Part shown: in pieces, positions 5,758 through 37,411 of the stretch | Numbering within the stretch: the first letter of the stretch is position 1 | Layout: each line of letters opens with the position of its first letter | Position numbers and translations under genes: made by a program | Source: Eggerthellaceae bacterium | GTDB lineage: Bacteria; Actinomycetota; Coriobacteriia; Coriobacteriales; Eggerthellaceae | Reading direction: 5' to 3' | NCBI GenBank assembly: GCA_030533105.1 | Contig: JAUNJT010000004.1 | Location: forward strand, 1-38,253 | Length of the DNA: 38,253 nucleotides | The notes under the pieces: model-generated | What the model was told of the DNA's origin: nothing | The model's database searches: none | The model's input: only the letters and a program-made list of their open reading frames with translations

Positions 5758-7266
5758 CTATCGGTTGGCGCGTTTCCCCAGTCTCCGCTGTTGGCGTGCA
5801 GCCTCACGTTGCTGCGCCAACTCGCGCTCCTTGCTGTAAAGCGGCAGATGGATGATGAAGCGCGCACCCTCATCCTTTTTACCTTGCACTTCTACCCAAC
5901 CGCCGTGTCGATCGACGATCTCCTTAACCACCGAAAGGCCGATTCCCAAACCGCCGCTTTCACGATTGCGTCCTGCCTCGGCGCGCCAGAAGCGCGAGAA
6001 TACCATCTTGGCCTCTTCGGGTGTGAGCCCAATACCGGTATCCTGCACCATGATCGATGCCATGATCTCGCCTTTGTACACCTTGACGGTGATCATGCCG
6101 CCCTCGGGCGTATAACGAACCGCATTCGAGATCAGGTTCGCCGTCGCCTGCCTGATCATGTCGGCGTCGCCGCGCACGAGCACGTCGTTTTCCGCTTCGT
6201 AGACCATCTCGAGTCCCGAATCAACCACGAATGCCTCATGCGCACCGATAATGCTTGAGACCAATTCGCCTACGTTGACGATCTCGTTTTTCATAGGCGT
6301 TGAGCGATTCTCCAAACGCGAGAGCTTCAGCAGCGCATCGACAAGCCTGCTTAAACGCTCGACTTCCGAGTTGACCGTGGCAAGCCTTTCCTCGTCGGGC
6401 TCGAATACGCCATCGACCATCGCTTCGACGGTCGAGCGGATTGCCATGAGTGGCGTGCGCAACTCATGAGCGACATCGGTTGTAAGGCGCCGTTCGAGTT
6501 TGCGGTCCTTCTCAACCGATTCCGCCATGGCGTCGAAGGTCTCACCCAACTGAGAGATCTCGTCATCGCCTTGCAAACCTGTTCGAGCAGTCAAATCACC
6601 GCTACCGATAGCTTTCGCGGTTTCCGTCATACGTTTGATCGGCCGCACCAAGCTGCGTGCGAACAAAAAACCGATGCCCGAAGCAAGCACGATGGCTAAC
6701 ACCGACGCAATGGCCATGGCTTGATAGGAATTCTCTCGGAAAGCGAGGTCGGTCTGACGCAGCAGGCCATCCGACCCGTAAACCCAAACCCGCACGAGGC
6801 CGACTGATTCGCCGTTTACCATGATGTCTGCCGTTGCGACGTTATCAGGGTCTGAGGGCGCTAAAGAGCGGGCTGCGATTCCCTGCTCCGGATTGACGAC
6901 GTTCGTGGAATCATAGCGAGTGGTGCCCGTGCTGTCGACGACGATGATGCCGACGCCTGGATACGTCACGCCCACATACGCGGCAGCCGATACCGTTTCG
7001 GTCGTCCACCCGTCTTCCTCAACGAAACGCTCCGCGATGCGCTCAGCCGTCGAATCGGCGGTTATCTGCATGTTCTCACGCGTGTATGTCTGGAAATGCT
7101 GTTCCCATACAAACGCCAGGAAGCCTGCCGCCACAAGTGCGGTCATCAGTGCGATAAGAGCGAACGAACAGGTCATTCGCGTGGTATACGACAGGTTTCC
7201 CCACCACGACTTCACTTTGCCGTGCTGGCTCGACGCGGAATTGTCGGACTTCTTTCGTTTCATCAT
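5758..7266 (-). CDS. Membrane-bound sensor histidine kinase (HAMP, class I)
   Basis: A 502-residue kinase paired with the response regulator just upstream. The first transmembrane helix is at about 32-54 and the second at 183-204, with an extracytoplasmic sensing region of some 130 residues between them. A HAMP linker (LVRPIKRMTETAKAIGSGDL) follows. The HisKA helix carries DVAHELRTPL with phospho-acceptor His267. The ATPase domain shows ANLISNAVRYTPEGG (N box), QDTGIGL (G1) and GGLGIGLSVVKEI (G2). The architecture resembles the PhoR/ResE/BaeS group. Two adjacent ATGs mark the start and the ribosome site is weak, so translation may depend on readthrough from the regulator gene 57 bases upstream. 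The signal sensed cannot be read from sequence. Confidence 0.93.
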   Translation of the reverse strand: MMKRKKSDNSASSQHGKVKSWWGNLSYTTRMTCSFALIALMTALVAAGFLAFVWEQHFQTYTRENMQITADSTAERIAERFVEEDGWTTETVSAAAYVGVTYPGVGIIVVDSTGTTRYDSTNVVNPEQGIAARSLAPSDPDNVATADIMVNGESVGLVRVWVYGSDGLLRQTDLAFRENSYQAMAIASVLAIVLASGIGFLFARSLVRPIKRMTETAKAIGSGDLTARTGLQGDDEISQLGETFDAMAESVEKDRKLERRLTTDVAHELRTPLMAIRSTVEAMVDGVFEPDEERLATVNSEVERLSRLVDALLKLSRLENRSTPMKNEIVNVGELVSSIIGAHEAFVVDSGLEMVYEAENDVLVRGDADMIRQATANLISNAVRYTPEGGMITVKVYKGEIMASIMVQDTGIGLTPEEAKMVFSRFWRAEAGRNRESGGLGIGLSVVKEIVDRHGGWVEVQGKKDEGARFIIHLPLYSKERELAQQREAARQQRRLGKRANR

Positions 7267-7323
7267 GTGCGAAGGCTTACGCTAATCCGGTGGCGTTTTC
7301 AGATCACCCGCACGTAATGGATG

Positions 7324-8031
7324 CTAGGCGGTTTTCGAGGGATCCTCGAAACGATAGCCTACACCATGGACCGTATGCAACCAACGAGGATTACGCGGAT
7401 TGTCGCCAATTTTCGCGCGCAGGTTCTTCACGTGAGAGTCGATTGTACGCTCGTATCCTTCGAAATCGTATCCAAGAACCTTCTCGACCAACTCCATACG
7501 GGAATATACACGGCCGGGATAACGCGAAAGCGTAGTCAAAAGCTTGAATTCGCTTGCGGTCAAATCGACTTCCTTGCCGCTCACCATGACCTTGTGACCA
7601 GAAACATCGATGGTCAGCTCGCCAAACTCGAGAACCTCACGCTGAGGCTCCGAGTCGGCATGTACACGGCGGAGCAATGCGCGAACGCGCGCAACGAGCT
7701 CGCGCGGGCTGAAGGGCTTGATCAAATAGTCGTCTGCTCCAAGCTCAAGACCGATGATGCGGTCTTCCACCTCGCCCTTTGCGGTCAGCATGATTATCGG
7801 CACATCGGAGTTATCGCGGATAGCACGGCAGACGCGTTCACCCGGAACGCGTGGAAGCATCAAGTCGAGAATCACCAAATCGAAATGATGCTTGCCGAAC
7901 TCCTCGAGCGCCTCCTGGCCATCGCCAACACCGGTAACCCAGTAGTTCTCACGCTCAAGATAAGCCGCAACCGCATCGCGGATGGCCTTCTCGTCTTCAA
8001 CCAACAGAATCCTACGTGTTTCGTTGCTCAT
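7324..8031 (-). CDS. OmpR/PhoB-family response regulator
   Basis: A 235-residue DNA-binding regulator. The receiver domain (1-120) has the acidic pair in LLVEDEKA, phospho-acceptor Asp56 in LVILDLMLP, and the conserved threonine and lysine in IIMLTAKG. The C-terminal winged helix shows LTASEFKLLTTLSRYPGRV, the recognition region YERTIDSHVKNLRAKIG and the final wing HTVHGVGYRFE. ATG at 8031 is used because AAGGAGA sits 6 bases upstream; an upstream in-frame ATG at 8055 lacks this. It forms an operon with the sensor kinase. It is divergent from the Tat-protein redox cluster across 124 bases, so that cluster is a natural candidate target (inference). Confidence 0.94.
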   Translation of the reverse strand: MSNETRRILLVEDEKAIRDAVAAYLERENYWVTGVGDGQEALEEFGKHHFDLVILDLMLPRVPGERVCRAIRDNSDVPIIMLTAKGEVEDRIIGLELGADDYLIKPFSPRELVARVRALLRRVHADSEPQREVLEFGELTIDVSGHKVMVSGKEVDLTASEFKLLTTLSRYPGRVYSRMELVEKVLGYDFEGYERTIDSHVKNLRAKIGDNPRNPRWLHTVHGVGYRFEDPSKTA

Positions 8032-8095
8032 GTGCTTCTCCTTACCATTACCCATAAGCGCAAGGTATCTTGCTTTGGGACCATATTCTGCGTTT

Positions 8096-8104
8096 ATTGT
8101 ATCA
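8096..8104 (-). promoter_or_regulatory. Extended -10 promoter of the two-component operon
   Basis: The minus strand reads TGATACAAT (revcomp of 8096-8104), an extended -10 (TGn plus TACAAT). It lies about 65 bases upstream of the regulator's ATG. No convincing -35 is seen. The region also has to carry the divergent promoter of the gene at 8156. Confidence 0.5.
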
Positions 8105-8155
8105 AATCAAGTGCCCGCCCCATTTTTTGCACCCGAAATGACACAATATTCCCCT

Positions 8156-9613
8156 ATGGCATCGAAAAAACGCGTACATACCAGCTTCACATCGGGCGGG
8201 AAGCACCGCACCGCGCGCCTGCGAGCAGCTGTCCGAGCACAGGAAAGCTCGCTTGATCAAGTCGCCGTCAACGTCCCGACCAAACTGGGCGACGTGGTGT
8301 TAACGAGGCGCCATCTGCTTATCGGGGCAGCAGGTGTCGTAGCCGTCGCGGGCATAGGCGTCGGAAGCTCGGTAATCTCCAAGCAATTCGGAGATGAAGC
8401 AAGCCTCGACATTCTATCCGTTCCCACCGCATCGGTGACATCCATGGCCGACTTCGAGCAGGTCGATGCTGACGAGTACATGTACTTGGATTCTGAATAC
8501 GAACTCCCCTACGGAACGCTTTTGTGGGCAAATGGGTCGATGGCGGCATGCCTGATTCCCGGCGATACGGGCAGCCCCTTAAACCGTCTCGGTGTTCTGT
8601 TCCTCTCGTCCGGTTACTGCCCCGTCGTGCTCAACAAGGCGGTCGGTTCGTCTGACGGATTCGAAATCTTCGATGCACGCGGCAGCGAAACCGGCTTGAT
8701 CTGGACCGAGGTAAACATCCTTGAAGGAACATGGCGCGTATATGGCGCCGTCCTTGATGATGACGTGCTTGGCGAGCCTGTCTTGCTCGAAGAGGGAGAT
8801 AGCGAATGGGAGACGCCAACACTTGCTGCAGTAGGCCCCTATGTTTATTGGCAGCTGTTGCCGAGCCTTTCAGGAACGCATACCGCCGAGCAATCGGTGC
8901 TCAAAAAAGCCCGAGTCGGCACGACAATCTCCTCGGTCGTTTATCAGTCGACGGGTCGCATGGCAACCGCCCCGACCACGACGGCAGAAGGCGTCATCAT
9001 CTCGCCCCGCGCAAACGCGGAGGGCATGTATTACCAGCTCACGAACCTGCGAGCAAAAGATGATGCCATCATCGACACCATGGTCCTCCCCCGATCAATG
9101 AGGCCTCTGGAGGTCGGGTATGGCACGAATGGCTTCAATTTCTCATTCGACGCCATCTACAACTACGGCGATGGCATTTCGAATCTCGGCACATACACGC
9201 CGCTTGAAAAGCGCGTGCTCAAAGAACCCGCTGTCGAAACGCCTTCCGAACAACAGGAATCGTCATCCCGCTCAATCGAGGAAACGCCCGCATCGCCACT
9301 GGCTTCCCAGACATTCACGCCAAAGTCGTATAGTGACTCCCCGTGGTTCGCTCTGAACCGCACCCCGAGTGCGCCAGCCTGCTGGTGCGGAAATCTGTTC
9401 ATGATCAAATCGACGCACGTCGTATGCGGCGTCAACATGGAGAATAAGCAGTATTTCACGCTCGATACGCACAGCGGGTCGCCCGATTACGGCGATTACC
9501 TGGCAACCACAGGCATAAGCGACTACGTGGTTACGTACACGAATATCGACGATAATCCCATCGATGGCGACCGAATGTATTGCACACTCGTCAAGGTCTA
9601 TGCACCCTACTAA
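8156..9613 (+). CDS. Tat-signal/membrane-anchored extracytoplasmic protein, propeller-like, function unknown
   Basis: A 485-residue protein. The N-terminal 50 residues are basic, followed by TRRHLLIGAAGVVAVAGIG (about 50-68), a twin-arginine motif plus hydrophobic segment. It is therefore probably exported or anchored by Tat, although the motif sits unusually far in. The remainder is rich in Tyr, Trp, Gly and Thr, with repeating strand patterns such as GTLLWANGS, TWRVYGAV and YVYWQLLPSL that suggest a beta-propeller. A Ser/Glu/Pro-rich linker follows near residues 355-385. A final segment has several cysteines (ACWCGN, VVCGVN, MYCTLV). In-frame ATGs occur at 8138 and 8156 and neither has a good ribosome site. 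It lies 23 bases before the Fe-S protein gene. No homologue with known function is recognised. Confidence 0.8.
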   Translation: MASKKRVHTSFTSGGKHRTARLRAAVRAQESSLDQVAVNVPTKLGDVVLTRRHLLIGAAGVVAVAGIGVGSSVISKQFGDEASLDILSVPTASVTSMADFEQVDADEYMYLDSEYELPYGTLLWANGSMAACLIPGDTGSPLNRLGVLFLSSGYCPVVLNKAVGSSDGFEIFDARGSETGLIWTEVNILEGTWRVYGAVLDDDVLGEPVLLEEGDSEWETPTLAAVGPYVYWQLLPSLSGTHTAEQSVLKKARVGTTISSVVYQSTGRMATAPTTTAEGVIISPRANAEGMYYQLTNLRAKDDAIIDTMVLPRSMRPLEVGYGTNGFNFSFDAIYNYGDGISNLGTYTPLEKRVLKEPAVETPSEQQESSSRSIEETPASPLASQTFTPKSYSDSPWFALNRTPSAPACWCGNLFMIKSTHVVCGVNMENKQYFTLDTHSGSPDYGDYLATTGISDYVVTYTNIDDNPIDGDRMYCTLVKVYAPY

Positions 9614-9636
9614 GCAACTCTGAAAGGAACAGCGTA

Positions 9637-10869
9637 ATGAGTTTGCTCGAACGTTCATCGACATACTGGAAATTCGCAGGACAGTGCGCCCAGTGCGGGT
9701 CATGCACGAAAGCGTGTTCCTCGCTTACGAACAACGATGTGACGCTCGGTCAAATCGCGCAGATGATGCTTGCAGCTGAACGCGCCTCTTCAACCAAAGA
9801 AGAGCTTCGCGACGCTATCGCCGCAAACGAACGCCTCGTCAAAGCTATTCGCGGATGCTTCTTCTGCACCACATGCAAGAACACCTGCTTCGCGCACAAT
9901 GATGTCTGCGACCTGATCTATAACGCACGCGCTGATTTCCAGGACCTCGGTCTTATAGAACCTGATTCTTGGATCGGCGTGCAGGTCGACAAGGAATGGG
10001 ATACGTTCACCGCGTATCGCGCCATCTACGGCATCGGTTATCCCGACCAGATACGGCACGTCCTGACGACCACGCACGAACCGGAATCCGATTGCGATAT
10101 CGCGTTCTTCCCCGGATGCACGCTTGCAGCATACGGTCCCGAGCTGACCGTCGAGATCTTCGATGCCGTCCAGGAACTCGGAGGCAAGACGACGCTCATC
10201 GACCACTGCTGCGGCTCACCGCTCAAGAGCAACGGATTCTACGATCGCGCAATTGCGTTGTGCGACCTGATCGCTGAAGAAATCACCTTCTCCGGTGCCA
10301 AGCAACTCGTGTGCGTATGCCCCGGATGCGCCAACGCCATGCGCAGAACCTTCGATCGCAACGGCATCACCGATGTCGAGATCGTGAGCCTGTCGAAATT
10401 CCTTAGCGAACATGGCTTCGAGCCGAAGCGCAGTTTGCCCGATGGCAAGATCTTCCTTTCGAAAGCATGCCAGGATCGCGATGGACGCTATCTTGAGGAA
10501 ACGAGCAAGCTTCTCGGCATCGATAGAGACGAAGCAGCGATCTATCATGGTTGCTGCGGAGCAGGCGGCGCGGTAAGCTCATACGATCCCGAACGCCAAC
10601 AGAAACGCATCGAGAAGAAGCTTTCGTTCGCAACCGACGATTCAACGGTCGTCTCGATGTGCCCCACATGTACATATACGTATGGAAGCTATCTGCTCGA
10701 AGAACCTCGTCCCATCGATAACAAGCACTATACGGAACTGCTCTTCGAGAATCAGTTCGACTGGAAAACCGTCAAGGATCAGGTGGATAGCATGTGGACG
10801 GGCGATTATGCCGTTTGGCTCGCGATGACATTCCGTTATGCACCCGAGATGAAGCAAGCGTCGAAGTAG
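9637..10869 (+). CDS. Two-CCG-domain Fe-S oxidoreductase (HdrB/GlpC/LutA-like)
   Basis: A 410-residue cytoplasmic electron-transfer protein. An N-terminal ferredoxin-like part has two cysteine clusters: CAQCGSCTKAC (Cys17, 20, 23, 27) and CFFCTTCKNTC (Cys74, 77, 80, 84). Together they can bind two 4Fe-4S centres. Two CCG domains follow, with FFPGCTLAAYG...HCCGSPLKS and KACQDRDG...HGCCGAGGAV, as in heterodisulfide reductase HdrB, GlpC and lactate/glycolate oxidase subunits. ATG at 9637 follows AAAGGA by 9 bases. It is directly followed by an FAD/NAD oxidoreductase gene, so electrons probably pass between the flavin of that protein and these Fe-S centres. The terminal donor or acceptor is unknown; no HdrA, HdrC or dehydrogenase gene is adjacent. 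Confidence 0.9.
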   Translation: MSLLERSSTYWKFAGQCAQCGSCTKACSSLTNNDVTLGQIAQMMLAAERASSTKEELRDAIAANERLVKAIRGCFFCTTCKNTCFAHNDVCDLIYNARADFQDLGLIEPDSWIGVQVDKEWDTFTAYRAIYGIGYPDQIRHVLTTTHEPESDCDIAFFPGCTLAAYGPELTVEIFDAVQELGGKTTLIDHCCGSPLKSNGFYDRAIALCDLIAEEITFSGAKQLVCVCPGCANAMRRTFDRNGITDVEIVSLSKFLSEHGFEPKRSLPDGKIFLSKACQDRDGRYLEETSKLLGIDRDEAAIYHGCCGAGGAVSSYDPERQQKRIEKKLSFATDDSTVVSMCPTCTYTYGSYLLEEPRPIDNKHYTELLFENQFDWKTVKDQVDSMWTGDYAVWLAMTFRYAPEMKQASK

Positions 10870-10890
10870 CGGAAAGGTTAGGTGAGACAC

Positions 10891-12195
10891 ATGGATTTCA
10901 ACAATAGCGCGTGCGCATCCTCGCCATCCGACCCGACCGTCGCCATCATCGGATACGGAACCGCAGGTGTGAATGCATTGATCGCGCTCCGCACGCACGG
11001 GTTCGACGGTCGCGTCATCATCTTCTCCGACACCGATACGCTACCCTACAGCCCTATCCTGACTTCGTACTATGCGGGCGGCATGAAGCCTTATGAAGCG
11101 GTCTTCCCGTGGAGTAAGGAGGAGCTCGATGCCCTCGGTGCCGAAGTGCGCCTTGATTGCCCTGTCACCAAGCTCGATCCTGTTGCGCATACCATCAGTA
11201 CCCCCGAAGGCGACTTCGCCTACACCAAATGCGTTATCGCATCAGGTGCAAAGGCGCATTGCGCAGGGTTCCCGCAATTCGAGGGCTTCTCGCCGCTTGT
11301 ACTGCGTACCTTGGACGAGGCGGAACGTCTCAGGCAGGCGTTGCTCGACCCTGCCTGCAAGCGCATCCTCATAAGCGGCGCCTCCATGATCGCCCTCAAG
11401 GCAGCTGAGGCATGCCTCAATCGCGGCATCAACACTACGCTTGTGGGCATGAACCCCCACGTACTCGACTTCAACGCATTCCCCGAAACGGCAATGCGCG
11501 TCGAAGCGGCTTTACGCGACTATGGCATGACATTGCGTCTGGGCATGGTCATCAAGGAAGTGAGATTCGCTGACGATGCCGATGCTGCGAAGGGGTGCCT
11601 TGAGGTAACGTTCTCAAACGGCGATAAAGACTTCTTCGACAACATCATCGTCGCGCACGGCGTCCGCTCGAGCCTCGAGTTCCTTGAGAAAGATGCCCTC
11701 GAACTCGACAGGGCCCTTGTCGTTGACGAATACATGCGCACAAGCGACCCTGACATCTACGCCGCGGGAGATGTCGCACAAGCTTTCGAACTCACGTCTG
11801 GAGAAAAGCGCATCGTCGGCATCTGGAAAAGCGCTGCTTTGCAAGGCGCCTGCGCAGGTGAAGCGATTGCAGCAGAACTGGCAGGAAAAGATATAAAAGA
11901 AGCCACACCGTATCCGGGTGCAATAGCGACGAACACGATCGTCATCCGCGATACGCTGTTCATCTCCGCAGGAACACTTGAGCTTAGCGAAAGACGCCAC
12001 ACCGAGTCGCACGAGATCGATGACATGCTCGTCATGACCGTCATCGAAGAGGATGACCAGAAAAACCGGTATCTCGTAGGATTCAATATCGCTTGCGACC
12101 ACGATGAGCGCGGAGGAGATGCTTACGACCTCGGTGCCATGCTCACCATGCGCATCGAGCAAGATAGCGAAAAACGTTTTCCACCCGCTATTTAG
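10891..12195 (+). CDS. FAD/NAD(P)-dependent oxidoreductase, pyridine-nucleotide-disulfide reductase fold
   Basis: A 434-residue flavoprotein. The FAD-binding Rossmann motif is AIIGYGTAGVNAL (GxGxxG at 21-26). YSPILTSYYAGG resembles the LPYSPxxL region of NirB/rubredoxin-reductase-like enzymes. The NAD region is near KRILISGASMIALKAAEACL, where GASMIA departs from the usual GxGxxG (the third glycine is alanine). The second FAD contact is TSDPDIYAAGDVAQ. ATG at 10891 follows AGGTGA; a GTG at 10882 is a possible alternative. It sits 21 bases after the Fe-S gene in the same unit. Its 3' end overlaps the convergent hydantoinase gene by 8 bases. The redox partner is probably the Fe-S protein (inference). 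Confidence 0.88.
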   Translation: MDFNNSACASSPSDPTVAIIGYGTAGVNALIALRTHGFDGRVIIFSDTDTLPYSPILTSYYAGGMKPYEAVFPWSKEELDALGAEVRLDCPVTKLDPVAHTISTPEGDFAYTKCVIASGAKAHCAGFPQFEGFSPLVLRTLDEAERLRQALLDPACKRILISGASMIALKAAEACLNRGINTTLVGMNPHVLDFNAFPETAMRVEAALRDYGMTLRLGMVIKEVRFADDADAAKGCLEVTFSNGDKDFFDNIIVAHGVRSSLEFLEKDALELDRALVVDEYMRTSDPDIYAAGDVAQAFELTSGEKRIVGIWKSAALQGACAGEAIAAELAGKDIKEATPYPGAIATNTIVIRDTLFISAGTLELSERRHTESHEIDDMLVMTVIEEDDQKNRYLVGFNIACDHDERGGDAYDLGAMLTMRIEQDSEKRFPPAI

Positions 12196-14257
12196 GTCTC
12201 GCGGTCGCCGTCACAATCGACTTGAACAGAAGAGCCACTCCGGACGCAGATGAATTCTCTTCGTCCCATGTAATCGTGATCTCGATCTCTCCCGTAGCTC
12301 CACGTTGCCGTGCCTTTTGCTCTGCATCCTTTTTCGCATGCTGGCAGGCAAGGTTCTCTGCCGCATCGCGATCCTTGATATACACTCGCTTGTCACCAAG
12401 CAACACCGCATAGCCCTTGATGCCGTTGGGACCCCAATCGGCAGCAACGATAACCGAAGATTGGGCGATAATGCGCGCTGAAATCGCACCGATGGCGTTC
12501 GCAACCTCTGCGTGCTCGGGAATGATGCATTCGGTTCCTAGGGCGGCTGCCACATCGGGAAGGAAGATGTGCGTCGGCGCGCCGACGCCGATAAGCGGAG
12601 CGGTCGCAAGGAAATCAAGACCGATCAAAGGCTTCTTCGTGTTGAAGGGAACACGCCCGCTCTTCTTCACATAGTCCCATTGCGTATCGAATGCCTTCAA
12701 GACCTCGGTAGGCACGCCATTCGCGAACGCGCGCGGAAATTGCTGTTCGAGCAGGATGCGTACGACGTTCAAGAAGAGCTTGCGCTTCACGAGGTCGTAC
12801 ACGTCATCGCACAAGGCAGAGAGGTGGAATACTTTCTGGTCGGTCTTGCCATCAGCGCTCCGTTGCCACGTGGAATAACGCTCGACGACCTTGCACACAT
12901 AGGTCGCAGCCAGCTCGCTTGCATGCGTATCGAACGCATCGAAGTCTCCACGGATATGCATGATATCCGTAGGCGTCAACCCGCACCTCATGACGATGCC
13001 TTCCGTTTCGAGGCGCTCGGCGATGCGGCCTACGCCAAGATCGTAAGGCTCGAAGTACTTCTGGTCACCGATGACCATCGGGCCGTCTCGGAGCACCTCG
13101 ATAAGGCGCTTCTCGTTCTTCGAGTAATTATCGAGACATTGCGGATCGCGGGCGAGATACAGCACTTCGTACAGCTCGCGACGCACCCACATCCCTCCAT
13201 CATCGAGCAGTTTCTTGAACGACTCGCACAGTTCAGGCCAGCGTGATGCAGCCATGCAAATCGGCTCGACACGACGTTCGCTCAAAAACAGCTCGTCGCT
13301 CCCGATTTTCACTGCACTGTCTCCGCCAAGGCCGAACGTATCGATGTACACACCCGGAATCTGCGTGCGCCAGTTCCCGATGCGGATACCTTTCGTCTTA
13401 ATCGGCGTACCCTGTTCGATAAGGGAGATATCGGTTGTCGTTCCGCCCATATCCACAATGAGCGCCGTATCGCAACCCACCAGATGGCAACACCCCTGCA
13501 CGCTTGCCGCAGGGCCGCTCACCATGGTCTCGACGGGCGTTTGACGTGTTTGCTCTTCGCCCATGAGCGATCCATCGCTTCGTACGATGGACACGGAAGC
13601 GTTCACACCACGGTCGCGAAGCGCACGCTCCACGGAATCGAGGAAGTCTTCGATGGTGGGCAGAAGGCGCGCATTCAAAATCGCCGTTGCGCCACGTTCC
13701 ATCATATTGAGCTTGTTCACGAGCTCGCTGGCCATGATGATGGGCACATGGTACTTTCCGGCAAGAGCCTTCTTGCCAGCACGCTCGACGACCGCGCCAT
13801 TGCGCGCCGCATTCATCTCAACGATGCCGAAGGCCTGTGCCTCCTTAAGCCAATCCTCGTTCTCTTCAATGAATGCGTCCCAATCAGGTTGGACGACAGA
13901 ACTGCCATCGAACTCGCCGGTCACATCGATGCAGCGCACATCGTCATACGAGAACCCATATCGCACGGGAGCGTCGATACGATGGAGCACCGATTCATTC
14001 GTGCCCACGAGCACAAGCCGTGCGCGACCGCCTTTCCCCTCGACGCAAGCATTAGTTGCAAGAGTCGTTGAAAGAACAACCTGACGCGCTTCTCCCAGTA
14101 ATTCAACGGGTAAGGAATCGAGTGCCGCACAGATGCCGATGGAAAGATCCTCTTTCGTCGTTCGGGCTTTGCCTTTTGCAATAACCTCTTTTTTGTCCAT
14201 ATCGTATGCGACTGCATCCGTATACGTTCCACCTGTATCGATGCCGATTCCTATCAT
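12188..14257 (-). CDS. Hydantoinase/oxoprolinase family protein (HyuA-like)
   Basis: A 689-residue member of the ASKHA-fold hydantoinase A/oxoprolinase family. It opens with IGIGIDTGGTYTDAVAYD and has STTLATNACVEGKGG, GPAASVQGCCHLVGCDTALIVDMGGTTTDISLIEQG and DTFGLGGDSAVKIG, all typical phosphate and metal loops. Family members hydrolyse or carboxylate cyclic amides, hydantoins, 5-oxoproline or ketones using ATP, usually with a separate HyuB subunit. No hyuB is present here, as also occurs in stand-alone homologues. The start at 14257 is the natural N-terminus, but its ribosome site is poor. It is the last gene of galE-trkA-hyuA, 21 bases after trkA. The substrate cannot be assigned. Confidence 0.88.
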   Translation of the reverse strand: MIGIGIDTGGTYTDAVAYDMDKKEVIAKGKARTTKEDLSIGICAALDSLPVELLGEARQVVLSTTLATNACVEGKGGRARLVLVGTNESVLHRIDAPVRYGFSYDDVRCIDVTGEFDGSSVVQPDWDAFIEENEDWLKEAQAFGIVEMNAARNGAVVERAGKKALAGKYHVPIIMASELVNKLNMMERGATAILNARLLPTIEDFLDSVERALRDRGVNASVSIVRSDGSLMGEEQTRQTPVETMVSGPAASVQGCCHLVGCDTALIVDMGGTTTDISLIEQGTPIKTKGIRIGNWRTQIPGVYIDTFGLGGDSAVKIGSDELFLSERRVEPICMAASRWPELCESFKKLLDDGGMWVRRELYEVLYLARDPQCLDNYSKNEKRLIEVLRDGPMVIGDQKYFEPYDLGVGRIAERLETEGIVMRCGLTPTDIMHIRGDFDAFDTHASELAATYVCKVVERYSTWQRSADGKTDQKVFHLSALCDDVYDLVKRKLFLNVVRILLEQQFPRAFANGVPTEVLKAFDTQWDYVKKSGRVPFNTKKPLIGLDFLATAPLIGVGAPTHIFLPDVAAALGTECIIPEHAEVANAIGAISARIIAQSSVIVAADWGPNGIKGYAVLLGDKRVYIKDRDAAENLACQHAKKDAEQKARQRGATGEIEITITWDEENSSASGVALLFKSIVTATARPK

Positions 14258-26031: not shown

Positions 26032-27201
26032 ATGGCGTTTGAGGAATACACCTATTCAGGCACGGAACGGCTTCGTCGCGGATACACCACCGGCACGTGC
26101 GCCACGCTGGCTGCCAAGGCCGGCTGTATCGCATTGCTGACAGGCCAAGCTCCCCAAATCGTATCGGTTATGACCCCTGCGGGTATCGAGGTGACCGTCG
26201 AGCCGATTTTGGTTAGCACGTCAGCAGATGAAGCCACCTTCGGCGTCATAAAGGATGCGGGCGACGATTACGATGTCACGAACGGTGCCGAGGTCCGCTG
26301 CACCGTGCGGTTCATTGAATCGGGCATTGACATCGACGGCGGCTCCGGCGTCGGACGCGTAACGGCAAAAGGTCTCAATCAGCCTCCGGGAAACGCCGCC
26401 ATCAATTCAGGTTCTCGAAAGCAAATCCAAGCCGCTGTCCAAGAATGCCTCGATACGTTCGATTGCCTCAAGGGCATCAGCGTAGTAGTTGAAGTGGTCA
26501 ATGGAGAGGAAATCGCCAAAAAGACCTTCAATCCTTCAATCGGCATTGAAGGAGGCATCTCCATCATCGGCACAACCGGCATCGTGGAACCACGAAGCTT
26601 GAAAGCATTGAAAGATGCTCTTGAGGTCGAGATTCGATATCAAGCAGCACAGGGACACAAAAACGTAATCGTGACACCGGGCAACTACGGTGAGTCGTTC
26701 TCGCTATCGCTCGAGCTTCCTCCCAACATGCCTTTGATCAAATGCGCGAACTTCATCGGTGAAACGCTGGACTGCATCGCCATCAATGGTTTCGAGAACG
26801 TTCTGCTCATAGGCCATATCGGAAAGCTCGTCAAGGTTGCTGGAAGCATCATGGACACGCATTCGCGTATGGCAGATTGCAGACGCGAGATATTCGCGGC
26901 GCATGCAGCATGGTGCGGAGCATCAACCGAGACCATTCACGAGCTGTTCGACTCGATGACGACCGATGCCTGCATCAAGATACTCGATGACGTGAACCTA
27001 CGCGACCAAGTGATCGAGCGCATCGCCCAAGCCGTGCAAGGAGCCGCCGATCGCCGCATTGGAGAGTTCGTCCGCATCGGCGTGATCATTTTCTCGAACG
27101 TTTACGGGCTTTTGGCTGTCACTCCCGAAGCTCAGGCAATAATCGACGATTGGAATGCAAACGGTATCGAAGATGCCGATGACGGAAAGGCGAACCAGTG
27201 A
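26032..27201 (+). CDS. cbiD: Cobalt-precorrin-5B C1-methyltransferase
   Basis: A 389-residue enzyme that methylates C1 of the corrin ring in the anaerobic pathway, using SAM. The signature RRGYTTGTCATLAAKAG is at 15-31, close to the N-terminus. GSGVGRVTAKGLNQPPGNAAIN, GGISIIGTTGIVEPRS, VTPGNYGE and LLIGHIGKLVKVAGSIMDTHSRMAD are the other conserved blocks of CbiD. The length is normal. ATG 26032 comes 5 bases after the lipoprotein stop with AGGGAAC close upstream. Its TGA overlaps the GTG start of cbiF by 4 bases, so translation of the two is probably coupled. Confidence 0.97.
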   Translation: MAFEEYTYSGTERLRRGYTTGTCATLAAKAGCIALLTGQAPQIVSVMTPAGIEVTVEPILVSTSADEATFGVIKDAGDDYDVTNGAEVRCTVRFIESGIDIDGGSGVGRVTAKGLNQPPGNAAINSGSRKQIQAAVQECLDTFDCLKGISVVVEVVNGEEIAKKTFNPSIGIEGGISIIGTTGIVEPRSLKALKDALEVEIRYQAAQGHKNVIVTPGNYGESFSLSLELPPNMPLIKCANFIGETLDCIAINGFENVLLIGHIGKLVKVAGSIMDTHSRMADCRREIFAAHAAWCGASTETIHELFDSMTTDACIKILDDVNLRDQVIERIAQAVQGAADRRIGEFVRIGVIIFSNVYGLLAVTPEAQAIIDDWNANGIEDADDGKANQ

Positions 27202-28001
27202 TTGATTTCGTAGGTGCAGGAAGCGGTGCCGCCGACCTCATCACCGTGAGGGGGAAAACCCTGCTTGAGCAGGCGGATGTCATCATCTATGCGGGAAGCT
27301 TGGTCAACCCCGCGCTGCTCGACTACGCGAAACCCGACTGCGTTATCTACAACAGCGCGAAGATGACGCTCGAAGACGTGCTTGATGTGATGTTCGATGC
27401 CGAAGCACAGGGAAAGCGTACCGTGCGATTGCATACGGGCGACCCGTGCCTGTACGGCGCAATCCGCGAGCAGATGGATGTGCTTGATGAAAAGGGCATC
27501 CCCTATACGTATACACCAGGCGTTTCGAGTTTCTGCGGTGCTGCAGCCGCACTCAAGGCGGAATATACACTTCCGAACGTCTCGCAAAGCGTGATCATCA
27601 CGCGCATGGAAGGACGCACTCCGGTTCCCGAGGGCGAAGCCATGAGAAAGATGGCGAGCCACGGCTGCTCGATGGTCATCTTCCTTTCGGCAAGCTTGCT
27701 TGATGCCTTGCAAGATGAGCTCATCGCAGGAGGAGCGTATACGGCCGATACGCCGGCAGCTCTCGTGTACAAGGCGACATGGCCCGATGAGCGCGTCGCC
27801 TATTGCACGGTAGGCACGATTGCGCAAACCGCACGTGAGAACAATATGACCAAGACCACCCTCGTTTGCGTGGGAGGCTTCCTCGGTTCCGAATACGACC
27901 GTTCTAAACTCTATGATCCGACCTTCTCGACGGAATTCCGCGCAGCGAGCAGCCACGCAGTTGCAAGCGCTGGCAACGTTGACGCGACCGATAAGGACTA
28001 G
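27198..28001 (+). CDS. cbiF: Cobalt-precorrin-4 C11-methyltransferase
   Basis: A 267-residue SAM-dependent tetrapyrrole methylase acting at C11. It begins IDFVGAGSGAADLITVRG, the CbiF form of the family's VGxGPGxxxLLT motif. ADVIIYAGSLVNPALL, RLHTGDPCLYGAIREQ (the GDP loop), YTPGVSSFCGAAAAL and IITRMEGRTPVPEGE are typical. The start is GTG at 27198 inside the end of cbiD (GTGA overlap), with GGAAAGG upstream. A short C-terminal tail after GSEYDRSKLYDPTFSTEFR is Ala/Ser-rich and probably unstructured. Confidence 0.96.
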   Translation: MIDFVGAGSGAADLITVRGKTLLEQADVIIYAGSLVNPALLDYAKPDCVIYNSAKMTLEDVLDVMFDAEAQGKRTVRLHTGDPCLYGAIREQMDVLDEKGIPYTYTPGVSSFCGAAAALKAEYTLPNVSQSVIITRMEGRTPVPEGEAMRKMASHGCSMVIFLSASLLDALQDELIAGGAYTADTPAALVYKATWPDERVAYCTVGTIAQTARENNMTKTTLVCVGGFLGSEYDRSKLYDPTFSTEFRAASSHAVASAGNVDATDKD

Positions 28002-28004
28002 CAC

Positions 28005-29012
28005 ATGGCCGACATCCGCCTCATAGCGTTCACCCAGAAAGGGCTCGAACTCTCAAAGCGAATCGCCGATGGCCTCATGTCAACCGGTGATGATGCTTCA
28101 TGCGCGAAGGGCTTCGGCGAAGGCAAGGTCAACCATCACCAGTGGACTGCTGAAGCATTCGCCGAGGCGGATGCGCTCGTATTCGTTTCGGCAACGGGCA
28201 TCGCAGTCAGGAGCATCGCCCCTTACGTGGTGGCCAAGGATCAAGACCCGGCCGTCATCGTGATAGACGAAGGCGCCAACTATTGCATCCCGCTTTTAAG
28301 CGGGCACATCGGCGGGGCGAATGCCCTCGCGAAGCGTATCTGCGCTATCACGGGTGCTGCCTTCGCCGTCACGACCGCATCGGATGTAAACGGCGTGTTC
28401 GCAGTTGACACCTGGGCAACCGAGCAGGGTCTCAAGGTATTGAACACGCCCGCCATCAAGGACGTGACCTCACGCTTGCTCGCAGGCGAAACGGTGACGT
28501 TCGAAAGCGAGCTTCCCATCATCGGCATGCTGCCAAAAGGCGTTGAAACCGTTCTCGGCGATCAAGCTGCCGACATTCATATCGGCATCCACCCGAACGT
28601 GACGGGGCTGAACCTCATCCCCCGTATCGCCATCGTCGGTATCGGCTGCCGAAAAGGTACCGAGCAAGCACGCATCGCGGATGCTTTCACAACGTTCTTG
28701 CGCGAAAACAACGTCGTGCGGGAAGCGATCTGCACCATCGCGAGCATTGACCTGAAGAAGGACGAGCCAGGCCTCGTAGCATTCGCGCAAGATGCCGGCC
28801 TGCCGTTCCAGACATTCAGCGAAACCGAGCTCAATGCCCTTGAAGGCGCGTTCAGCTCATCGGATTTCGTTCAGGGAGTCACCGGCGTCAGCTGCGTCTG
28901 CGAACGCGCAAGCGTAGCAGCGGGAGGCGTACTCGCGATTCCGAAAACCGTTATCGATGGCATCACCTTCGCATTAGCGGTGAAGCCTTGCACATTGAAC
29001 TGGAGTGATTAG
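28005..29012 (+). CDS. cbiG: Cobalt-precorrin-5A hydrolase
   Basis: A 335-residue enzyme that opens the delta-lactone of cobalt-precorrin-5A and releases the C20 carbon as acetaldehyde. The N-terminal and middle parts have AFTQKGLELSKRI, FVSATGIAVRSIAPYV, VIDEGANYCIPLLSGHIGGANALA and ASDVNGVFAVDTWA. The C-terminal CbiG_C domain begins AIVGIGCRKGTEQARI and includes TIASIDLKKDEPGLVAFA. It is unfused, unlike the CbiG-CbiH or CbiGF fusions of some anaerobes. It starts 3 bases after cbiF with AAGGA before the ATG. Confidence 0.96.
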   Translation: MADIRLIAFTQKGLELSKRIADGLMSTGDDASCAKGFGEGKVNHHQWTAEAFAEADALVFVSATGIAVRSIAPYVVAKDQDPAVIVIDEGANYCIPLLSGHIGGANALAKRICAITGAAFAVTTASDVNGVFAVDTWATEQGLKVLNTPAIKDVTSRLLAGETVTFESELPIIGMLPKGVETVLGDQAADIHIGIHPNVTGLNLIPRIAIVGIGCRKGTEQARIADAFTTFLRENNVVREAICTIASIDLKKDEPGLVAFAQDAGLPFQTFSETELNALEGAFSSSDFVQGVTGVSCVCERASVAAGGVLAIPKTVIDGITFALAVKPCTLNWSD

Positions 29013-29015
29013 CCT

Positions 29016-29771
29016 ATGAGCGGAACCTTGCACATCGTCGGACTTGGCCCGGGCAATGAACGCTTCATGACCCAAGCAGCGATTGAGACTTTGAAAAACG
29101 CCGATATCATCTGCGGCTACCATGTTTACACGGCTCTGGCAAGCGCCGTCGTGCCTGACACACCCGTATTCACCACACCGATGCGCAAGGAAATCGACCG
29201 CTGTCGCGAGGCTTTGCGTCTGGCGAGCGAGGGCAAGGACGTCGCGATGGTCTGCAGCGGCGATGCAGGCGTCTATGGCATGGCGGGACTCATCATGGAA
29301 CTCGCCCATGAATTCGACCCAGTCGACATCGACGTGGTCTGTGGGGTCACGGCAGCGCTTTCAGGTGCAGCGGTCCTCGGTGCACCTTTGACGAATGACT
29401 TCTGTACGATTTCGCTCTCCGACCAGCTCACTCCATGGGAGGAAATTGAAAAACGCCTGCATGCGGCCGGCGAAGCGGATTTCTGCATCGCGCTTTATAA
29501 CCCTATGAGCCGCCATCGCCCGCTGCACCTGCAAAAGGCATGCGATATCCTGCTTGAGCACCGCAATCCCGAAACGGTCTGCGGCGTCGTTCGTCAAATC
29601 GGACGCGACGACCAGTCCTTCTGGATCGGCACACTTGCAAAGCTACGCGATTACGAATGCGACATGTTCTGCACTGCGTTTGTCGGCAATGAGAAAACGC
29701 GCATCATCGATGGCAGGATGGTCACGCCACGTGGCTACGAGAAGAAACCAGAGATGGGGTCGACGGACTGA
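29016..29771 (+). CDS. cbiH: Cobalt-factor III / precorrin-3B C17-methyltransferase
   Basis: A 251-residue SAM-dependent methylase that methylates C17 with ring contraction. It opens LHIVGLGPGNERFMTQAA (the VGxGPG motif), then ADIICGYHVYTAL, MRKEIDRCREAL, AMVCSGDAGVYGMAGL, DVVCGVTAALSGAAVLGAPL and FCIALYNPMSRHRP. GYxxY and the YNPxSxxR segment are specific for CobJ/CbiH within the family. It begins 3 bases after cbiG with a TGGAGTGA ribosome site, and its TGA shares one base with the cbiJ start. Confidence 0.96.
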   Translation: MSGTLHIVGLGPGNERFMTQAAIETLKNADIICGYHVYTALASAVVPDTPVFTTPMRKEIDRCREALRLASEGKDVAMVCSGDAGVYGMAGLIMELAHEFDPVDIDVVCGVTAALSGAAVLGAPLTNDFCTISLSDQLTPWEEIEKRLHAAGEADFCIALYNPMSRHRPLHLQKACDILLEHRNPETVCGVVRQIGRDDQSFWIGTLAKLRDYECDMFCTAFVGNEKTRIIDGRMVTPRGYEKKPEMGSTD

Positions 29772-30517
29772 TGCGGGTACTTCTGTTCAGTGGTACAACC
29801 GAGGGTAAGGAACTTGCGATTCGCTTGGCGAACGCAGGCGTTTCGACCTACGTAAGCGTGGCAAGCGAAGTCGGTGCACGTAGCATGCCGACCGATGTCG
29901 ATAGACTCGAAACCATCGTCGGGCCATTGACCTATGAGGAAAAGCTCGAACTGTTCAAGGACTTCGATGTGATCGTCGATGCTACGCACCCGTTCGCAAA
30001 GTCCATCAGCACGCATGTCAAGGAAGCCGCCGATGCTACAGGCAAGCCGCTCATCCGAGTAGTGCGCGAACCCTCCGATTTGACCGGATGCCTGGTTGTG
30101 CCCACGCTCGAGGAGGCGATTGCACTCATTCCCGATGATGCCATCGTGTTGACGACCACAGGTAGCAAGCAGATCGGCGCCTATACCGTATTGCCGCGAT
30201 TCGCCGAACGCATATACGCACGCGTTCTCGATGATGCGGCATCTGTCGACGCATGCCATGAGGCAGGTCTTACCGATGACCACATCATCGCTAAGCGCGG
30301 TCCGTTCTCTCTTGAGGACAACATCAATGACATCGACCTCTTCGGCATCACGGCTCTTGTTACGAAAGATAGCGGCGCGGCAGGCGGTTTTCCCGAAAAA
30401 GCAGAAGCCTGTCGACAGCGCAACATCACGTGCATCGCCATCGCGCGACCGGACGAATCGGATGACGGCTTGTATCCCGATAGCGCGTTCGATGTGATCA
30501 TGGGTTATAGGAGATAG
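29771..30517 (+). CDS. cbiJ: Cobalt-precorrin-6A reductase
   Basis: A 248-residue NAD(P)H-dependent reductase. It begins RVLLFSGTTEGKELAIRLA, the CobK/CbiJ nucleotide-binding start. Further blocks are FDVIVDATHPFAKSISTHV, PLIRVVREPS, VLTTTGSKQIGAYTVLP, IIAKRGPFSLEDNI and LVTKDSGAAGGFPEKAEAC. All fit the family. The ATG overlaps the cbiH stop (TGATG), so the two are translationally coupled. Confidence 0.95.
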   Translation: MRVLLFSGTTEGKELAIRLANAGVSTYVSVASEVGARSMPTDVDRLETIVGPLTYEEKLELFKDFDVIVDATHPFAKSISTHVKEAADATGKPLIRVVREPSDLTGCLVVPTLEEAIALIPDDAIVLTTTGSKQIGAYTVLPRFAERIYARVLDDAASVDACHEAGLTDDHIIAKRGPFSLEDNINDIDLFGITALVTKDSGAAGGFPEKAEACRQRNITCIAIARPDESDDGLYPDSAFDVIMGYRR

Positions 30518-30519
30518 CT

Positions 30520-31815
30520 ATGATGATTTGGATAGTCGGCATCGGCATGGGTGATGCATCCACAATGACTGCGCAGGCAGCGCAAGCTATTCAGGATGCC
30601 GATGTGCTCGTCGGTGCCAAACGCATGCTCGAAAGCGCGCAGGCAGCAAGGATGGCAGCTGGCAAAGAAGCAGCTGCGGAATTGAAGGCTATTTCGCCAA
30701 ACGCCATCGTCAACGCCATCGAAGCGGCCGACGATGCAGAGCGCTTCGCAATCTTATGTTCAGGCGATACGGGCTTCTACAGCTTAGCGACCAGCGTCAC
30801 CCGCACGATCAACGAACGCTTGCCGCACGCCAACGTCGAGCTTGTTCCCGGCATCACCACCGTACAGTACTTCGCATCCAAACTCACCAAACCTTGGCAA
30901 AGCGTCGCACTTGCGAGCGCGCACGGCAAAACGTGCAACGTGCTGGGCATGGTGTTATCGCATGAGCAGGTCTTCCTGCTTACGGGTGGTGAATTAACAC
31001 CACAGACGATCATTCGCGAGCTTGCAGACTGCGGCCTGGGATTCTGTGAAGTCGCCATTGGCGAGCGCCTCTCATATGAGGACGAATGCATTACCACGGG
31101 AACCGCTGCCGAACTGCTCGAGCGCGAGTTCGACTCTTTGTCCGCGATTTGGATTTCCCGCGGACAGCTGTGCGATGACGAAGTCGCCGCGTACGCAGGC
31201 TTCCCCGGCATTCCCGATGACGCGTTTATTCGCGGAGCCATACCGATGACCAAGCGCGATATCCGCGCGTTGTGCACATCCAAAATGCGCGTGGCGAACG
31301 ATGAGGTCGTATGGGATATCGGTGCAGGCACGGGTTCGATCAGCATCGAAGCCGCATGCATGCAGCCCACCGCCCGCGTGTATGCCATAGAATTCAAGGA
31401 GGAAGGTTGCTCGCTCATCGAGCAGAACCGTGTGCGTTTCGGCGCATATAACGTCACTGTCGTGCAAGGTCGAGCGCCTATGGCGCTTGTCAACCTTCCT
31501 GCGCCTGACGTCGCATTCATCGGTGGAAGCACTGGCGGGCTTGCGCAAATCGTCGATGCGGTGCTTGCTGCGAACAAACAGGCGCGCATCGTCATCTCTG
31601 CCATCACGCTCGAAACCATCGCGCAAACCCAAGCGCTGCTCGCCGATCTTGCCGAACGCGGCGCAATCGATGGCTATCAAGCAACCCAGATCTCGGTCGC
31701 CACATCGCACGAAGCAGGTCGATATCACCTCATGACTGCCGAGAACCCGATCTTGGTGTTCGAAGCACACGGATCTGCCGCGCAAAACGACCCAAGAGAA
31801 GAAACGGATGCGTGA
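30520..31815 (+). CDS. cbiET: Fused cobalt-precorrin-7 C5-methyltransferase / C15-methyltransferase (decarboxylating)
   Basis: A 431-residue fusion. Residues 1 to about 210 are CbiE: IWIVGIGMGDASTMTAQA, ADVLVGAKRMLE, ILCSGDTGFYSLATSV, LVPGITTVQYFASKL, ALASAHGK and VFLLTGGELTP. Residues about 235-420 are CbiT, with GAIPMTKRDIRALCTSKM, the SAM loop WDIGAGTGSISIEAA (GAGTG at 268-272), and DVAFIGGSTGGLAQIVDA. The fusion corresponds to CobL of the aerobic pathway and carries out the last ring methylations and decarboxylation. It starts 2 bases after cbiJ with GGAGA upstream; ATG codons lie at 30520 and 30523. The last 4 bases overlap cbiA. Confidence 0.95.
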   Translation: MMIWIVGIGMGDASTMTAQAAQAIQDADVLVGAKRMLESAQAARMAAGKEAAAELKAISPNAIVNAIEAADDAERFAILCSGDTGFYSLATSVTRTINERLPHANVELVPGITTVQYFASKLTKPWQSVALASAHGKTCNVLGMVLSHEQVFLLTGGELTPQTIIRELADCGLGFCEVAIGERLSYEDECITTGTAAELLEREFDSLSAIWISRGQLCDDEVAAYAGFPGIPDDAFIRGAIPMTKRDIRALCTSKMRVANDEVVWDIGAGTGSISIEAACMQPTARVYAIEFKEEGCSLIEQNRVRFGAYNVTVVQGRAPMALVNLPAPDVAFIGGSTGGLAQIVDAVLAANKQARIVISAITLETIAQTQALLADLAERGAIDGYQATQISVATSHEAGRYHLMTAENPILVFEAHGSAAQNDPREETDA

Positions 31816-33200
31816 ATCTGATGAGCCTGTGCGCCACACCCCGCATTCTGATCTCCGCCGTCTCGAGCGGATCGGGAAAGACGACCATCACGAGTGGCCT
31901 GTTGCGTTGCCTTGCGCGACGCGGCATGAAACTAGAAGCCTACAAGTGCGGCCCCGACTACATCGACCCGATGTTCCACAAGCGCGTGCTCGATACGCCG
32001 TGCCGCAACCTCGACCTTTTCTTCTCGACGGAAGACGAAGTGAGAACCCTTTTCGGCCAAAGCTCGCAAAACGCTGAGCTTGCCGTACTCGAGGGCGTCA
32101 TGGGCTTTTTCGATGGGTTGGGTGGCACGACGACGCAGGCCAGCGCCTATCATCTGGCAAGAACAACGCACACGCCCGTCATCCTTATCGCGGATGGGCG
32201 CGGCACCTCGCTTACGCTCGCCTCGGTGATCAAGGGCGTGCAAGAGTTCCGCGAGCAAACCCATATCGCCGGCGTCATCGTCAACCGTTGTTCGAAAAGC
32301 GCCTATTCCCTCATCTCGCGCGCCGTTGAATCGGAGTGCGATATCCCCGTACTCGGCTACGTGCCGGTTGAGCACGATGCGGTACTTGAAAGCAGGCACT
32401 TGGGTCTGATCACCGCTGACGAGGTCACCGACTTGCAAGCACGCATCGATAAGATGGCAGATTTGCTCGATGACTCTGTAGATGTCGATGGGCTCATCGC
32501 CATCGCAAGAGATGCCGAACCGTTCGAGTACGAACCATTCGAAATCGAGCCCATCGTCCAGAACGCACCCGTCATCGCAGTAGCGAACGACAACGCTTTC
32601 TGCTTCTATTACGAAGAGAGCCTTGAGCGGCTGCGCCAACTCGGCGCTACGATCGTCGGCTTCTCTCCTTTGCATGACGAGAAGCTACCCGAAGACGCAG
32701 ACGCGCTCTACTTCGGTGGCGGTTATCCTGAACTGTATGCCAAGGAGCTTTCCGCAAACGAAGCGATGCTCGCATCGGTAAGGCATGCATGCGGAACCGG
32801 CATGCCCATCTTCGCCGAATGCGGCGGCTTCCTCTATCTTAAAGAACACCTGACCGATTTAGAGGGCATCGAGTGGCCGCTGGCAGGCATCTTGCCTGGC
32901 GGTGCCCACTATACAGGCAAGCTCTCACGCTTCGGATATATCGAGCTCGCAGCGCAGCAAGCAGGCTTCGCTGCGCAAATAGGTGAAACCTTCAGGGCGC
33001 ACGAATTCCATTATTACGATAGCGATGAGAATGGTACGGCCTTCCATGCCAGAAAGCCCCTTTCAAAGCGCAATTGGGATTGCTGTTATTCGGATAATCA
33101 TCTGTTCGCGGGCTTTCCGCATCTATACCTACCCGCCGCACCTCGTTTCGCCGAGAACTTCGTTCGAGCCGCCTCGGCGTTCAAGGAGGCAAAAGGGTAA
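31812..33200 (+). CDS. cbiA: Cobyrinate a,c-diamide synthase
   Basis: A 462-residue glutamine-dependent amidase for the a and c side chains. The ATP-binding part has ILISAVSSGSGKTTITSGLL and YKCGPDYIDPMFH. LEGVMGFFDGLGG and VIVNRC are also present. The C-terminal triad glutamine amidotransferase part contains YFGGGYPELYAKEL and FAECGGFLYL, with nucleophile Cys337, then FRAHEFHYYD. The GTG start at 31812 overlaps the cbiET stop by 4 bases; ATG 31821 is an alternative with slightly better position. It ends with a TAATG junction to cbiB. Confidence 0.96.
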   Translation: MNLMSLCATPRILISAVSSGSGKTTITSGLLRCLARRGMKLEAYKCGPDYIDPMFHKRVLDTPCRNLDLFFSTEDEVRTLFGQSSQNAELAVLEGVMGFFDGLGGTTTQASAYHLARTTHTPVILIADGRGTSLTLASVIKGVQEFREQTHIAGVIVNRCSKSAYSLISRAVESECDIPVLGYVPVEHDAVLESRHLGLITADEVTDLQARIDKMADLLDDSVDVDGLIAIARDAEPFEYEPFEIEPIVQNAPVIAVANDNAFCFYYEESLERLRQLGATIVGFSPLHDEKLPEDADALYFGGGYPELYAKELSANEAMLASVRHACGTGMPIFAECGGFLYLKEHLTDLEGIEWPLAGILPGGAHYTGKLSRFGYIELAAQQAGFAAQIGETFRAHEFHYYDSDENGTAFHARKPLSKRNWDCCYSDNHLFAGFPHLYLPAAPRFAENFVRAASAFKEAKG

Positions 33201-35242: not shown

Positions 35243-35243
35243 T

Positions 35244-36764: not shown

Positions 36765-37411
36765 GAATGCTGCAAATCGAGAACGTGCTGCCAAATGATA
36801 TCGAACGGCGAAGCATGCAAATCATCGATGAGGAGCTGAGCGCGCAAGGCATCACGCTCGATCCTGCCCAGGCACCGGTCATAAAGCGGTGCATTCACAC
36901 ATCTGCCGATTTCGATTATGCGCGTAACCTCGCGTTTTCGCCGCATGCTCTCGAAGCGGGCATCGAAGCTCTCAAAGCCGGTTGCACCATCGTCACCGAT
37001 ACGAAGATGGCATATAGCGGCATCAGCAAACCGACGCTCGCGAAGCTCGGTTGCCAGGCCGCATGCTTCATCGCCGATGAAGATGTTGCACGACGCGCGA
37101 AGGAATCCGGCTGCACGCGTTCGACAATCTGCATGGATAAGGCCGCCGAGGTCGAGGGCGATGTGATCATCGCCATCGGCAACGCGCCGACCGCACTCAT
37201 CCGCGTCGCAGAACTGATCGATGAAGGTAAGCTCAAACCCAAGCTGGTCATCGGAGCTCCCGTTGGTTTTGTGAACGTCGAGGTCAGTAAAGAAATCATC
37301 ATGGAGCGCAATGTAGAGTATATCGTCGCACGCGGGCGCAAGGGCGGCAGCAACATCGCAGCTTGCATTGTAAACGCACTGCTCTATCTCGCGACGGGAA
37401 GGAGCCTGTAA
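36752..37411 (+). CDS. cbiC: Cobalt-precorrin-8 methylmutase
   Basis: A 219-residue enzyme that moves the C11 methyl to C12, forming cobyrinic acid. The catalytic histidine is His49 in KRCIHTSADFDYA. TIVTDTKMAYSGISK, IAIGNAPTALIRVAELID, VIGAPVGFVNVEVSKE and VARGRKGGSNIAACIVNALL are the conserved blocks. GGAGG is close upstream of ATG 36752, which lies inside the end of cbiP. It is placed after the amidases although it acts before them, so gene order does not follow pathway order. Confidence 0.96.
   Translation: MQRIGMLQIENVLPNDIERRSMQIIDEELSAQGITLDPAQAPVIKRCIHTSADFDYARNLAFSPHALEAGIEALKAGCTIVTDTKMAYSGISKPTLAKLGCQAACFIADEDVARRAKESGCTRSTICMDKAAEVEGDVIIAIGNAPTALIRVAELIDEGKLKPKLVIGAPVGFVNVEVSKEIIMERNVEYIVARGRKGGSNIAACIVNALLYLATGRSL

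Follow-up and report, generated by a model that had tools for sequence, protein, structure and literature searches.

The window examined here is the whole 38,253-nucleotide stretch (contig C102; GenBank JAUNJT010000004.1) of an Eggerthellaceae bacterium assembly that comprises 1,667,957 bases and is 89% complete. Three open reading frames on the forward strand start at positions 8156, 9637, and 10891 and end at 9613, 10869, and 12195, respectively, leaving gaps of 23 bases between the Tat-signal gene and the Fe-S gene and of 21 bases between the Fe-S gene and the flavoprotein gene. This layout agrees with the earlier note, which had described three same-direction genes 21 to 23 bases apart. 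The features of the region are as follows:

5758..7266, reverse strand: histidine kinase, conserved neighbour of the Tat gene (profile match, neighbourhood)
7324..8055, reverse strand: OmpR-type response regulator, conserved neighbour of the Tat gene (profile match, neighbourhood)
8156..9613, forward strand: Tat-signal protein, 485 amino acids, probably outside the pair and associated with the two-component genes (homologue distribution, neighbourhood, motif)
9637..10869, forward strand: Fe-S protein, 410 amino acids, subunit 1 of the pair, with an HdrC-like dicluster part and an HdrB-like double CCG part (profiles, motifs)
9685..9888, forward strand: two CxxCxxCxxxC motifs, C17-C27 and C74-C84, predicted to hold two cubane [4Fe-4S] clusters
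10117..10329, forward strand: CCG motif 1, with C161, C191, C192, C228, and C231 (motif, alignment)
10468..10671, forward strand: CCG motif 2, with C278, C306, C307, C342, and C345 (motif; CPTC aligns with CPFC of HdrB)
10891..12195, forward strand: ferredoxin-reductase-type FAD protein, 434 amino acids, subunit 2 of the pair (profiles, motifs, fold)
11374..11400, forward strand: altered nucleotide loop SGASMIALK, residues 162-170
11446..11460, forward strand: G186-x3-H190, with Gly where NADH enzymes have Asp or Glu (alignment)

The Fe-S protein matches the CCG domain model PF02754 at 52.2 bits (cut-off, 20.6), and Fer4-type Pfam models match its first part below their cut-offs. Among the 39 listed homologues, sequence patterns recovered the dicluster motifs in 38, the first CCG motif in 37, and the second in 35. 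Five sequences were partly missed by the patterns; L131 lacks its 5′ end, and L126, L127, L128, and L132 hold the ten cysteines by inspection. In the full-length homologues of this set, both CCG motifs carry five cysteines each. Motifs and PF02754 together bear out the earlier description of eight ferredoxin-type cysteines and two CCG domains. A profile search retrieved HdrB at 5.7e-6 and placed C342-P-T-C345 on the C-P-F-C of HdrB (counted as C231 and C234); the similarity is weak, and the third match of the same list, an engineered repeat protein at 3.9e-5, is a chance match. An excerpt of PMC13083937 describes Cys81 and Cys234 of HdrB as bridging the catalytic irons and EtfD as an electron conductor only, in which His and Thr replace the Hdr cysteines. 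Because the CCG cysteines are kept here, unlike the His/Thr of EtfD, the Fe-S subunit would by this criterion be of the catalytic Hdr kind. The hydropathy maxima over 19 residues (0.97 for the Fe-S protein and 1.46 for the flavoprotein) indicate no membrane segment in either chain.

The flavoprotein matches Pyr_redox_2 at 156 bits, and its FAD motifs are present in 37/37 listed homologues. By profile, AorC is its nearest relative of solved structure (E value, 1.7e-41); according to an excerpt of PMC10413684, AorC transfers electrons from Fe-S clusters to NAD or back. Fold prediction was carried out on L098, a natural fusion in which both proteins lie in one open frame of 825 amino acids. The domains of this model are good and the docking of its halves is unreliable, because the mean pLDDT is 87.7 but the pTM is 0.57. 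The fold-search matches listed for the fusion model all concern the flavoprotein half, which aligns with the NADH-dependent ferredoxin reductase 3ef6 at a Z score of 41.0 and an rmsd of 2.2 over 377 residues (many rows were tied). In the model, the flavoprotein has a ferredoxin-reductase fold over its whole chain.

The GASMIA sequence pointed out in the NAD loop of the flavoprotein proved to be part of a family-wide change, found in 37/37 listed homologues. All of them carry G-x-S-(M/L)-x-x-L-K and Gly-x3-His; a pattern search recovered 36, and L124, which reads AGTSMVALK, was recognized by eye. The third loop glycine of AorC, putidaredoxin reductase, and BphA4 is mostly Ala in the homologues, and the invariant Gly aligns with Glu in AorC, Asp in putidaredoxin reductase, and Glu in BphA4. 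PDB entry titles report an engineered NADPH-using TPNOX and BphA4 variants, with changes at the same loop and Gly places, and the flavoprotein perhaps uses NADPH rather than NADH. It may also have lost nucleotide binding; nucleotide use is unproven since the loop departs from that of NADH binders in all 37 listed homologues. Four listed flavoproteins (L121, L124, L126, and L132) read G-R-S at the specificity site, where TPNOX has A-R-S, and they come from exactly the four loci in which the two genes converge or stand in reversed order. In a midpoint-rooted tree these four flavoproteins group in one clade with a support of 1.0; the Fe-S proteins of these loci branch early and form no clade.

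Close Fe-S homologues, defined by 58% identity or more, occur in 14/60 genomes, the window's own included, and weaker relatives occur in 36/60. The flavoprotein gene adjoins the Fe-S gene in all 14 carriers. A scan of genome contigs, overlapping the 60-genome set, returned at least 42 loci, 38 of them from Coriobacteriia, and among the matches listed the flavoprotein is adjacent in 36 of these 38. In those 36 listed loci it lies downstream in the same direction in 32 (the L098 fusion counted among them), converges with the Fe-S gene in 3 (L121, L124, and L126), and lies upstream in 1 (L132). L129 has a convergent flavoprotein fragment at the contig end, and no flavoprotein match lies within about 5 kb in L128. 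The four non-Coriobacteriia loci L134 to L137, with Fe-S proteins 20 to 24% identical, likewise gave no flavoprotein match. Fe-S relatives of 31 to 35% identity in L016 and L069 to L074 also have no flavoprotein nearby; since L128 and these seven loci do without one, the Fe-S fold appears to work without a flavoprotein as well. A radical-SAM/acetyltransferase gene is close to the Fe-S relative in L069, L070, and L072.

The distances among homologues of the two proteins correlate (r = 0.76 over 35 loci), a value that co-evolution and shared descent could each explain. The best relatives among the matches listed are two Eggerthellaceae metagenome-assembled genomes with Fe-S proteins 94 and 92% identical, one of them from goat jejunum. 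In the goat jejunum relative, a frameshift, either real or an assembly error, interrupts the Fe-S gene (L097, 10001-11229) close to the 3′ end. Plasmid records gave four weak matches, none reaching 80% coverage. The conserved adjacency and the motifs uphold the earlier reading of an Fe-S protein and a flavoprotein as a redox pair of the HdrB/GlpC kind, and the two form a genuine conserved oxidoreductase module. No description of this pair was found in the literature with the limited search terms used.

Clustering of open frames across the 38 listed loci found no conserved third gene beside the pair. It recovered the pair itself, frames overlapping it, and a few genes that recur in 4 to 7 loci without a fixed position, namely, FAD synthetase, acetate kinase, cyclophilin, a PP-loop protein, an ABC ATPase, FeoB, and TrkA. 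A hydantoinase/oxoprolinase-like gene (12188-14257, reverse strand) converges on the flavoprotein gene with an 8-base overlap in the window, and among the 38 listed pair loci it occurs only in the two from the window's genus. Anaerobic cobalamin biosynthesis genes (CbiD, CbiG, CbiJ, CbiB, CbiC, and others) lie on the forward strand of the window at 26032-37411. A cobalamin link to the pair was considered and rejected (CbiD in 7/14 carriers versus 11/46 other genomes).

The earlier note had joined all three genes into one redox unit, in which the exported Tat protein would serve as a sensor, a carrier, or the outer half of the system. The genes share a direction and a 23-base gap, the arrangement is maintained in three species of one genus, and, where the note had counted a promoter and terminator of the Tat gene's own as a refutation, the stretch between the Tat and Fe-S genes contains no forward-strand terminator-like site; a promoter scan was uninformative (2 sites versus 2.2 in shuffles). 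A common transcript of the Tat gene and the pair is possible in the window's genus. The distribution of homologues, however, makes a three-gene unit highly improbable. The Tat family matches 57/60 genomes against 14/60 for the pair, and the co-occurrence check suggested by the note finds the pair kept together and the Tat gene elsewhere, the scattering that the note had named as a refutation: of the 14 carriers, 3 (G000, G001, and G002, all of one genus) have the Tat homologue next to the pair, 10 have it on another contig, and 1 (G023) gave no Tat match. The match in G046 is a fragment only. Positions were scored by contig rather than by distance because the genomes are drafts.

The neighbourhood of the Tat gene points the same way. 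In a sample of 20 loci from 20 other genomes, mostly best matches, a response regulator and a histidine kinase are found near the Tat gene in 19 (the exception is L094), and neither an Fe-S nor a flavoprotein gene is found in any. Loci from the same bacterial family as the window have both two-component genes in 15/16 cases, in all 15 divergent from the Tat gene, and those from other families have them in 4/4 cases, in the same direction as the Tat gene (about 3 kb away in L093). TrkA and purine genes border this block in several sampled loci. Since the 20 sampled loci hold no redox genes, the pair, together with the hydantoinase-like gene, stands between Tat and TrkA in the window's genus only. 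The three-gene unit was therefore rejected, as Tat positions are scattered and Tat loci hold two-component genes instead.

The description of the Tat protein as exported and cysteine containing holds, with the Tat-like motif TRRHLLIGA at residues 50-58, but its six cysteines, a further point against a redox role in the unit, are not conserved (the best is kept in 17/22 aligned members). The Pfam TAT_signal model matches 12/22 family members and not the window's own protein. Because a lipobox-like cysteine follows the signal in four members from other bacterial families (L090 to L093), the Tat protein is probably envelope anchored. The family is exported, lacks a Pfam domain, and stands beside an MtrA-like response regulator and a kinase (window 5758-9613; L075 to L093); the best NCBIfam match of the window's response regulator is MtrA, at 238 of the 300 bits of the cut-off. 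This gene position recalls that of LpqB in other Actinobacteria, where LpqB is the partner of MtrAB. No Gmad1 match in support of an LpqB-like identity was found in 21 genomes, the probability was 0.3% when hhalign compared the Tat family to 9 LpqB-like frames, left untrimmed, and the single-sequence model of the Tat protein was unusable (mean pLDDT, 32). Taken together, the Tat protein is probably only a local neighbour of the oxidoreductase and belongs with the adjoining two-component system.

With the HdrBC and HdrD core, the Fe-S protein shares the dicluster part, the two CCG motifs with five cysteines each, and the CPxC cysteines aligned with those of HdrB. The pair differs from heterodisulfide reductases in having a Pyr_redox_2 flavoprotein of the ferredoxin-reductase type in place of HdrA or HdrE, in its weak sequence similarity (22.7 bits against the cut-off of 345 for the NCBIfam HdrB equivalog TIGR03288), and in its host, a bacterium of the Coriobacteriia. 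The statement that HdrA and HdrC are missing is thus right in that the partner is not HdrA, but an HdrC-like dicluster part does exist, fused to the HdrB-like part. The flavoprotein resembles AorC and the NADH-dependent ferredoxin reductases (BphA4, TodA, and putidaredoxin reductase) in its whole fold and FAD motifs, and departs from them in the altered loop, in the invariant Gly that replaces Asp or Glu at the second-strand end of the NAD domain, and in its HdrBC-like partner. The NCBIfam family NF045663 (pyridine nucleotide-disulfide oxidoreductase/dicluster-binding protein) likewise combines flavin, dicluster, and CCG parts, but in one chain with the flavin domain first, and the Fe-S protein scores 85.2 bits against its cut-off of 530. 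Of 296 genomes from the phylum, a single one passes this cut-off, and it is not the window's; there (G235, contig C5, L095), a full NF045663 protein has the flavin domain fused ahead of the dicluster and CCG parts. GlpC, LdhH, TfrB, and EtfD share the dicluster and CCG layout alongside a flavoprotein, but the Fe-S protein lies far below the model cut-offs of the first three (for the GlpC equivalog models, 49.9 of 278 and 30.1 of 279.9 bits) and has no transmembrane region, unlike EtfD, which the excerpt of PMC13083937 presents as a membrane protein with changed cluster ligands. The pair looks like the core of a heterodisulfide reductase with a flavoprotein similar to ferredoxin reductases as its driver.

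On balance, we favor the view that the pair is a soluble, cytoplasmic, NAD(P)H-linked HdrBC-like oxidoreductase acting on a disulfide or a similar soluble substrate. From the observed gene structure, conservation, and motifs, we infer each electron-transfer step as follows. The FAD would exchange hydride with a nicotinamide nucleotide, probably NADPH over NADH, and electrons would then move singly, by way of the two cubane clusters, to two noncubane clusters of the HdrB type, with cysteines aligned to the bridging ones of HdrB. There, a disulfide or a similar soluble substrate would be reduced or, in the opposite direction, formed, with the flavoprotein standing in for HdrA. The neighbourhood of the pair in the 38 listed loci gives no hint of the acceptor. 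A more specific version is possible but tentative: a new class of NADPH-driven disulfide reductases in Coriobacteriia, in which the flavoprotein would pass electrons straight to a catalytic HdrBC core, with neither HdrA nor electron bifurcation, and a small-molecule or protein disulfide would be reduced.

Two other roles are compatible with parts of the evidence. The pair could act in the manner of GlpC or EtfD, the flavoprotein oxidizing a nucleotide or another donor and the Fe-S protein only relaying electrons to membrane menaquinone. Weak matches of the Fe-S protein to the GlpC, LdhH, and TfrB models (30 to 70 bits), a profile match to the 1042-amino-acid iron-sulfur-binding reductase 9ojn_A (E value, 0.0016; by its length probably EtfD), and the presence of UbiA-type prenyltransferases in 10/14 carriers are consistent with such a role, but the lack of a membrane segment and of a conserved membrane neighbour, together with CCG cysteines of the Hdr rather than the EtfD kind, makes it unlikely. 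UbiA is, moreover, missing in 4/14 carriers, including G007 (98% complete) and G057 (94%); the remaining two are incomplete genomes (G000, 89%, and G002, 66%). Menaquinone dependence of the pair was rejected, as UbiA is also found in 37/46 noncarriers and is thus not enriched in carriers. The pair could instead lack its own substrate and supply electrons to an enzyme encoded elsewhere, in the way that AorB is served by AorA and AorC. Two genes without a conserved third in the listed loci would suit such an accessory, the excerpt of PMC10413684 presents AorC, the closest solved relative by profile, as a subunit of this sort, and among NCBIfam models a phenylglyoxylate dehydrogenase subunit scores highest (179 bits; cut-off, 475). 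The CCG motifs, however, retain Hdr-type cysteines that a mere conduit does not need, and we regard this role as unlikely as well.

The analysis singles out two genes as one testable enzyme and removes the Tat gene from it. If the pair is a nicotinamide-driven reductase of the Hdr type, then a noncubane disulfide-reducing core would be run by a simple two-gene bacterial module, and an unrecognised disulfide/thiol pool would be implied in Eggerthellaceae and their relatives.
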